Assembly (NCBI GenBank): GCA_014238205.1
Contig: JABABM010000001.1
Span: 1-64,000, forward strand
Length of the DNA stretch: 64,000 nt
Origin: Phycisphaerales bacterium
GTDB taxonomy: Bacteria; Planctomycetota; Phycisphaerae; Phycisphaerales; SM1A02
Direction of reading: 5' to 3'
In this document: positions 8,728 through 9,992 of the stretch, in pieces
Position numbering within the stretch: the first letter of the stretch is position 1
Layout: each line of letters opens with the position of its first letter
Made by a program: the position numbers and the translations under genes
The notes under the pieces: generated by a model
Seen by the model: the letters and a program-made list of their open reading frames with translations, nothing else
What the model was told of the DNA's origin: nothing
Databases searched by the model: none

Positions 8728-8752
8728 TGTTGATCTGTGGGTGAAAGTGGGG
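8728..8752 (+). promoter_or_regulatory. MraZ-box array (autoregulatory operator)
   Basis: MraZ binds direct TGGGN repeats spaced by five bases in front of its own gene in Escherichia coli. Here TGGGT at 8738-8742 and TGGGG at 8748-8752 are exactly ten bases apart, with GAAAG between them, and a degenerate third copy TGTTG stands ten bases further up at 8728-8732. The array ends 42 bases before the mraZ start. The period and the sequence both fit; autoregulation is inferred. Confidence 0.72.
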
Positions 8753-8794: not shown

Positions 8795-9259
8795 GTGCTT
8801 TTTACAGGCGAATACGAATACACGATCGACGCAAAGCAGCGTCTTGCCATTCCGTCAGACCTTCGTGGGCGACTCGACCCGAAGGTCCACGGACTGGCCT
8901 TTTACATTGCTCCTGGGCAGGAGGGTTCCCTGTGGCTTTGGCCGGAACTGACCTTCGAGGCCATGGCCATGGCTGGGGAACAGTCCCTGATTCCGGACGA
9001 GGAACTCCTGGAATACGAGCAGCTGCTCTATTCGCAGGCGACCCGGGTGGATATGGACAAGTCGGGCAGGATCCGGATTCCAGAACGCATGCTCAAGATG
9101 GCCGACCTGGGTTCGTCCGTGGTCGTACTTGGAGTCAAGGATCATCTCGAGGTTCGCGATCCTCAACGTTGGGAACAACTCCGGGAGAAGAAGTTCACGC
9201 AGCAGGCCGAGATCATGCTGCGTGCAAGGCGAGCCATACAGAAACAACGAGAAGAATAG
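8795..9259 (+). CDS. mraZ: Transcriptional regulator MraZ
   Basis: 154 residues of the MraZ/AbrB-like family. The double swapped-hairpin layout is present: FTGEYEYTIDAKQRLAIPSDLR at 3-24 and a second copy, TRVDMDKSGRIRIPERML, near 86-103. MraZ is a DNA-binding ring protein that normally sits first in the division and cell-wall cluster and represses its own promoter. Here the start is a GTG at 8795 with AGGA ten bases upstream, and MraZ boxes lie just ahead. No rsmH or fts gene follows; the next gene is csrA on the other strand. The C terminus is a basic, helical tail rich in Lys, Arg and Gln. Confidence 0.95.
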   Translation: MLFTGEYEYTIDAKQRLAIPSDLRGRLDPKVHGLAFYIAPGQEGSLWLWPELTFEAMAMAGEQSLIPDEELLEYEQLLYSQATRVDMDKSGRIRIPERMLKMADLGSSVVVLGVKDHLEVRDPQRWEQLREKKFTQQAEIMLRARRAIQKQREE

Positions 9260-9759
9260 GTTGCTTCGTGCCTTCAACGAATCGCTTCTATGGAAACCAC
9301 GGACTCATCACAGATGAGAACTGCAGTTACATCGATGTGAACTCCGGCAAGGGGTTCACATCATTTCGGCATGCATGGATGCGTGCTACTTTCGATACCG
9401 ACGCACGTCGCACGCCACGGATGGCGTGCGTGCGTCACTTCGAAACCAGGTTGGCTGCTGCGATGGAACCGCCAGCACTCAACATGTCGCCGAATGTTCG
9501 ATACAGAGTATTCATGGGGTCAAGGAAGACTCCTCAGGGGCAGGGTCGCCCGGCAAGGATCGCCACAGCGCCTGTCATGTCCGGTTCCCAGTCGAAGCCC
9601 AAGGACGGGCTCGACTGCTGAGGCAGACCAGGGCTGGATGGGTGATCCAGACCTGCTGCCAACCATCGGCGATGACGGTTCGTCCACCCGCGAGCGTCCG
9701 CGTCGAATACCCCTTCCCGGTTCGTGGCGTGCTCCCACTGCACGCCACGGACTTTTTTT
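9260..9759 (+). ncRNA. Candidate structured RNA with GGA-loop hairpins (CsrB-like) or mraZ 3' UTR
   Basis: About 460 bases without a convincing ORF run from the mraZ stop to a strong terminator. I see hairpins at 9304-9318, 9334-9362 (nine-base perfect stem), 9368-9387 (loop ATGGAT), 9400-9436 (stem of 15 pairs with a three-base bulge, loop CGGA), 9454-9476 (loop ATGGAAC) and 9589-9617 (11 pairs with one bulge, loop AAGGAC). In the last four the loop presents GGA, and CATGGATG, CACGGATG and CAAGGACG resemble the CsrA site core CANGGANG. The total number of GGA triplets (10 with the terminator) is near chance; the case rests on their place in loops and on csrA lying next door. No clear own promoter is visible, so it may be cotranscribed with mraZ. 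Sequence landmarks of RNase P RNA, tmRNA or SRP RNA are absent. Confidence 0.5.
9723..9759 (+). terminator. Rho-independent terminator
   Basis: A ten-base perfect stem, CGTGGCGTGC at 9723-9732 with GCACGCCACG at 9740-9749, encloses the loop TCCCACT and is followed after three bases by seven T at 9753-9759. The T run is on the plus strand, so it ends transcription arriving from mraZ or the structured region, not from csrA. Its 3' arm repeats a 12-base sequence also found at 9410-9421. Confidence 0.9.
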
Positions 9760-9770
9760 GGGTTCGCAGC

Positions 9771-9992
9771 TCAGCTCTTCTGGTTTGCAGGTCGAATCTT
9801 GCCAACGATGCTCGGCTTTTCAGCCAGGATCTGCTCGGCAACCTCACGACGGTGCACTTCCACCTCGCGAGGGAAATCCATCGCCAATCGCACACGGTCA
9901 CCCTTGACCGAGGCAACCCTGACAATTCCGATTGGGTTGGCTGGATCGCCAATGACGACCTCTTCGCCTTCTCTTCTCGTTATGACGAGCAT
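9771..9992 (-). CDS. csrA: Carbon storage regulator CsrA
   Basis: 73 residues, the usual CsrA size. It begins MLVITRREGEEVVIGD and keeps the family pattern: IGIVRVASVKGDRVRLAMDFPREVEVHRREV, with the RNA-contacting N-terminal strand and the VHRREV helix entry. CsrA dimers bind GGA motifs in mRNA leaders and alter translation or stability. The start is firmly set by AGGAGG eight bases before ATG; that element itself contains GGA, as expected where CsrA represses itself. It converges on the mraZ transcript and has its own promoter. No fliW gene is adjacent. Confidence 0.96.
   Translation of the reverse strand: MLVITRREGEEVVIGDPANPIGIVRVASVKGDRVRLAMDFPREVEVHRREVAEQILAEKPSIVGKIRPANQKS

Follow-up and report, generated by a model that had tools for sequence, protein, structure and literature searches.

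A conserved array of CsrA-type hairpins behind mraZ in Phycisphaerae, a candidate CsrA-sequestering RNA

RNAs that act as CsrA sponges have been described mainly in gammaproteobacteria, and the question raised by this locus is whether the approximately 500 bases separating mraZ from a csrA gene in a planctomycete of the order Phycisphaerales (the order of the source genome, by the names of its relatives) give rise to an RNA of this kind. A preliminary description of the window (the whole stretch of DNA analysed, 64,000 nucleotides) had placed either a CsrA sponge or a CsrA-bound mraZ 3′ UTR in this gap, which it described as free of credible genes, dense in hairpins and ending in a textbook terminator on the plus strand. 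These three features were borne out. The ORFs tested across the gap generated no Pfam match, and the gap contains many indels between relatives; the possibility that it codes for protein was therefore rejected, and the conserved ORF that would speak against an RNA was not seen. The plus strand from 9260 to 9760 folded with a z score of -5.96, none of 100 shuffled sequences folding as well, and the terminator consists of a strong stem followed by a T-run. The features of the locus are listed in Table 1.

Table 1. Features of the mraZ-csrA2 locus (positions in the window)
Feature	Position	Strand	Remarks
MraZ-box-like pair TGGGT-GAAAG-TGGG	8738-8751	+	mraZ promoter region
mraZ	8795-9259	+	GTG start; Pfam PF02381, E 4e-24; host gene, with the RNA at its 3′ end
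Proposed CsrA-sequestering RNA (mraZ 3′ UTR or sRNA processed from mraZ)	9260-9758	+	Based on fold z score, hairpin conservation and covariation
CsrA-type hairpin 1, gcatgc-ATGGAT-gcgtgc	9369-9386	+	Loop 9375-9380; perfect 6 bp stem
CsrA-type hairpin 2, cgcacgcc-ACGGAT-ggcgtgcg	9409-9430	+	Loop 9417-9422; perfect 8 bp stem
Weak ANGGA site	9460-9472	+	3 bp stem; 7 nt loop (9463-9469)
CsrA-type hairpin 3, ggggtc-AAGGAA-gactcc	9516-9533	+	Loop 9522-9527; 6 bp stem
CsrA-type heptaloop, ggc-AAGGATC-gcc	9552-9564	+	Loop 9555-9561; equivalents recur in relatives
CsrA-type hairpin 4, agccc-AAGGAC-gggct	9596-9611	+	Loop 9601-9606; perfect 5 bp stem
C-rich tract CCCCTTCCC	9710-9718	+	Directly before terminator; 3′ part invariant in 19 relatives
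Intrinsic terminator	9719-9758	+	14 bp stem (9719-9753) and T-run; likely 3′ end of the RNA
csrA2 (divergent CsrA copy)	9771-9992	-	Pfam PF02599; aligned with its kin and E. coli CsrA

The high-affinity CsrA/RsmE site is a hexaloop, ANGGAX, seated directly on a stem (PMC4005645), and the loops of the element match this published site. Four perfect C-ANGGAN-G hexaloop hairpins are present in the gap, the last of which tops a longer imperfect stem. The count differs from that given earlier, when GGA had been noted in the loops of four stems and a CsrA-site-like core in three of them. The loops starting at 9375, 9417 and 9601 do sit on perfect stems, but the one at 9463 is weak and forms no hexaloop in the nearest relative; the loop at 9418-9421, read as CGGA, belongs to a real hairpin but is the hexaloop ACGGAT; and hairpin 3 and the heptaloop had been overlooked. 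The total number of GGA triplets had been judged close to chance, and it is indeed ordinary (10 on the forward strand and 9 on the reverse strand of the gap). Their context, however, is skewed, as nine of the ten forward GGAs but none of the nine reverse GGAs lie in ANGGA (P ~2e-5, given a window-wide ANGGA fraction of 0.24).

The ordinary GGA total is what a chance origin, in which GC-rich hairpins happen to expose GGA in their loops, has in its favour, and this explanation was refuted by counts in relatives. In the region downstream of mraZ at 90 loci of the source family, 171 hairpins with an ANGGAN hexaloop and a stem of at least 5 pairs were found, compared with 1.0 ± 1.0 in dinucleotide shuffles (maximum 3 in 50 runs) and none on the opposite strand. 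The closing pair was C-G in 160 of these 171 hairpins, and their 5-nt stem arms comprised 56 different sequences. Flanking sequence amounting to 428 kb contained 23 ANGGAN hexaloop hairpins, and the share of ANGGA words located inside such a hairpin was 34% downstream of mraZ but 1.5% elsewhere. ANGGANN heptaloops behaved in the same way (32 downstream of mraZ in the family, 0 on the reverse strand). Across dozens of genera the stem sequences vary while the GGA loops are kept, which is the loop conservation predicted by the preliminary description. The compensatory changes it had proposed to look for were also found. Among 19 aligned relatives, pairs had changed on both sides in 62 cells, compared with 21.6 for shuffles. 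This excess collapsed when pairing partners were slid, a control that is somewhat favourable because the structure itself came from that alignment; the hairpin counts, made on unaligned sequences, are free of this bias. Hairpins 1 and 2 correspond to covariation helices 1 and 2, and hairpin 3 corresponds to helices 3 and 4. The terminator stem is nearly invariant in the 19 relatives, so most of the covariation is contributed by the GGA-capped stems. With these counts and the covariation against it, a chance origin has a negligible probability.

To place the hairpins in the source genome, 460 kb were scanned in stretches on both strands. Thirty-four hairpins of this type, with stems of 5 pairs or more, were found, and the mraZ-csrA locus was the only cluster among them. 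A dispersed palindromic repeat was rejected as an identity for the element, because the stems differ between hairpins and there is a single cluster in the 460 kb. The isolated hairpins elsewhere were inspected as possible mRNA targets, and none in the scanned sequence lay convincingly at a ribosome-binding site.

The neighbouring csrA gene had been offered as support for a CsrA-binding RNA. It adjoins the element in the source family, but only there. When C-ANGGAN(N)-G sites were counted over the 450 nt that follow the mraZ stop codon, they were present at 87 of 90 loci in the family (245 sites), at 18 of 23 loci in other families of the order, at 20 of 40 in other orders of the class Phycisphaerae and at 1 of 20 in other planctomycete classes, and the reverse strand had none within this distance in any group. 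Thus, the element accompanies mraZ across the order and, less strictly, across the class, and other planctomycete classes are essentially without it. Outside the source family the hairpins stand behind mraZ with no csrA nearby, which indicates that the RNA belongs to mraZ; csrA was accordingly rejected as the anchor of the element. In other families and orders, the surroundings of the CsrA matches that were retrieved, which were second copies or weaker matches, contained no C-G-closed hairpin of this type with a stem of at least 5 bp.

The tie to mraZ also bears on whether the RNA is a stand-alone sRNA of the CsrB/RsmZ type, with its own promoter and independent of mraZ expression. The element has a terminator of its own, and the sponges of gammaproteobacteria are stand-alone genes; nevertheless, we regard this alternative as rather improbable. 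The distance from the mraZ stop codon to the start of the first hairpin is 12-30 nt in several genera, so that a dedicated promoter would have to lie inside mraZ, and a scan of the plus strand here, which covered sigma-70 promoters only, found no promoter-like site. The region upstream of mraZ, by contrast, carries candidate regulatory repeats. Of 173 loci, 94 have MraZ-box-like pairs (TGGGN-N5-TGGG, the TGGG repeats being at a spacing of 10 nt) upstream of mraZ, at a density of 3.1 per kb compared with 0.02-0.04 per kb in controls; roughly half of the loci examined, from Phycisphaerae and other planctomycetes, keep the pair, which is nearly absent from the rest of those sequences. In E. coli, MraZ binds such repeats and represses its own promoter through them. 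The repeats suggest that MraZ may control its own gene together with the RNA that follows.

Because CsrA is present twice in most genomes of the family, as a canonical copy adjacent to fliW and as the divergent csrA2, the probable binding partner was considered next. In alignments, csrA2 keeps the RNA-contacting beta-1 (MLVITRR) and beta-5 (VHRRE) segments, and it matches solved CsrA/RsmE chains in the PDB. Several genera yielded csrA2 but neither canonical CsrA nor FliW, and the hairpins are still present there, which favours csrA2 as the partner within the family. In f5, another family of the order, most genomes gave a canonical-type CsrA match only and some of them still have sites, so csrA2 cannot be the sole partner. 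The presence of CsrA was only weakly informative about the presence of sites within the class, and one CsrA-negative draft genome still has sites. The csrA2 copies also share an extra conserved C-terminal tail with the motif xGxIRP, which is absent from E. coli CsrA. In another class of the same phylum, CsrA itself is unusually multiplied in two genomes, which contain 17 and 9 CsrA-domain matches.

The same hairpin was found at a second kind of locus. Beside canonical csrA, a C-ANGGAG-G hairpin holds the flagellin Shine-Dalgarno sequence in its loop in the six genomes inspected, and the arrangement recurs in more; at all six loci the hairpin is downstream of canonical csrA. Judged from this arrangement, flagellin of Phycisphaerae is likely repressed by CsrA. 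The flagellin leader thus serves as a positive control, indicating that the hairpin code is in use in these bacteria. It also weighs against the notion that some other protein reads the ANGGA loops, or that the hairpins are DNA or termination elements, with CsrA uninvolved. The fact that csrA is no neighbour outside the family would fit such a reading, but the loop and its C-G closing pair agree with the CsrA/RsmE structural consensus, and the differing stems and single cluster are unlike dispersed palindromes. We consider it very unlikely, and binding of CsrA to the hairpins, as predicted from their form, is highly probable.

Taken together, these observations support the earlier proposal of a CsrA sponge or CsrA-bound mraZ 3′ UTR, and the stretch is probably a CsrA-sequestering mraZ 3′ UTR or an sRNA cut from the mraZ transcript. 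Each C-ANGGAN-G hairpin would be a docking site of the kind preferred by CsrA, and an RNA with at least four sites would bind several CsrA dimers. Transcription of mraZ would then lower the level of free CsrA and release mRNAs that CsrA holds down. The simplest reading would be one transcript, comprising mraZ and a CsrA-sequestering 3′ UTR and driven through the mraZ promoter; a processed RNA, as in RsmU, would be equally compatible with the data. We infer in this scheme that CsrA, most likely the csrA2 product encoded alongside, binds the RNA, that it is sequestered in trans and that this is coupled to MraZ autoregulation. A wider proposal, that MraZ mRNA may be a class-wide CsrA sponge of Phycisphaerae dedicated to the second CsrA, beside a separate CsrA1-FliW-flagellin circuit, is tentative, and we would place it a little short of an even call.

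The main rival confines CsrA to a role in cis, in which its binding to the mraZ 3′ UTR would change how the mraZ mRNA is processed or how stable it is, with no titration in trans. The element always stands behind mraZ and is kept where csrA is distant, as a cis element would be, and some loci have a single site. Site number varies by locus, many loci having only one to three, a pattern as compatible with a cis element as with a sponge. In six genomes of family f5, moreover, a C-ANGGA-G hairpin precedes the mraZ start by 25-31 nt, pointing to CsrA control of mraZ itself; CsrA may control mraZ translation there, and for part of the order this hairpin makes a cis effect of CsrA on mraZ plausible. 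Most loci, however, have several sites, up to seven at one locus, which is more than a simple cis switch needs. We therefore regard an exclusively cis role as unlikely, and the cis and trans roles are mutually compatible.

Comparison with known systems places the proposed sequestering RNA in a mechanism of known kind. Like CsrB/CsrC and RsmX/Y/Z, the element is non-coding, with several GGA sites, many in hairpin loops, and an intrinsic terminator, and sequestration of CsrA would likewise be expected of it; it also has the several conserved ANGGA hairpin-loop sites on one RNA that are expected of the functional class. Those RNAs are stand-alone, whereas the element is attached to mraZ and shares no sequence or Rfam match with them. 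E. coli CsrB and CsrC contain 22 and 14 GGAs, respectively, compared with 10 in the element, but a strict scan found no such hexaloop in either, whereas the element has four perfect ones and its GGAs are nearly all in ANGGA; this difference in architecture counts against the sponge reading. Transcription of CsrB/RsmZ sRNAs is activated by BarA-UvrY or GacS-GacA, whereas the element has MraZ-box-like repeats upstream of its host gene. The search against Rfam that had been suggested identified no known family covering the stretch: no covariance model, including CsrB, CsrC, RsmX, RsmY and PrrB/RsmZ, matched the window at its gathering score, and cmscan of 9200-9800 with E up to 10 returned unrelated families only, all below gathering. 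The best of these, tfoR (16.5 bits; gathering score, 70), was rejected, as its match rests mainly on the terminator.

A second parallel is RsmU of Xanthomonas, an sRNA that arises by processing of the XC1332 mRNA 3′ UTR and sequesters RsmA (PMC7694677). RsmU is thus a decoy of a CsrA-family protein derived from an mRNA 3′ UTR, a role that is predicted for the element too, but host gene and phylum differ, and RsmU was reported as limited to Xanthomonas (PMC7694677) while the element spans a class. The hag/flaA leaders, which are repressed by CsrA with FliW as the protein antagonist, use the same hairpin code, found here too at the flagellin gene; there the site covers the ribosome-binding site and represses one mRNA, whereas the element has serial non-coding sites behind a stop codon. 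The use of FliW has been predicted for planctomycetes (PMC4682653), and the element co-occurs with FliW in most genomes checked, in contrast to gammaproteobacteria, which are without FliW (PMC7652899). Joint use of FliW and an sRNA was undetermined for any species according to a 2020 review (PMC7652899), and no description of a CsrA-sequestering RNA in planctomycetes was found in the open-licence literature. What appears new to us is the host gene, the clade, the architecture and the coexistence with FliW. Near-ideal CsrA hairpins arrayed across a class, mostly in genomes that also have FliW, point to a greater age or more than one origin of RNA antagonists of CsrA. If the proposal holds, RNA and protein antagonists of CsrA would be used together in one bacterium, their cooperation would become directly testable, and a cell-division transcription factor would be linked to CsrA. 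The description of the family could become an Rfam entry.

One further conserved part of the element lies at its 3′ end. The C-rich tract preceding the terminator (CCCTTCCC) hardly changes among the 19 relatives, nor does a UCCCAC motif located in the loop of the terminator (both within 9710-9745), and either could pair with Shine-Dalgarno sequences.
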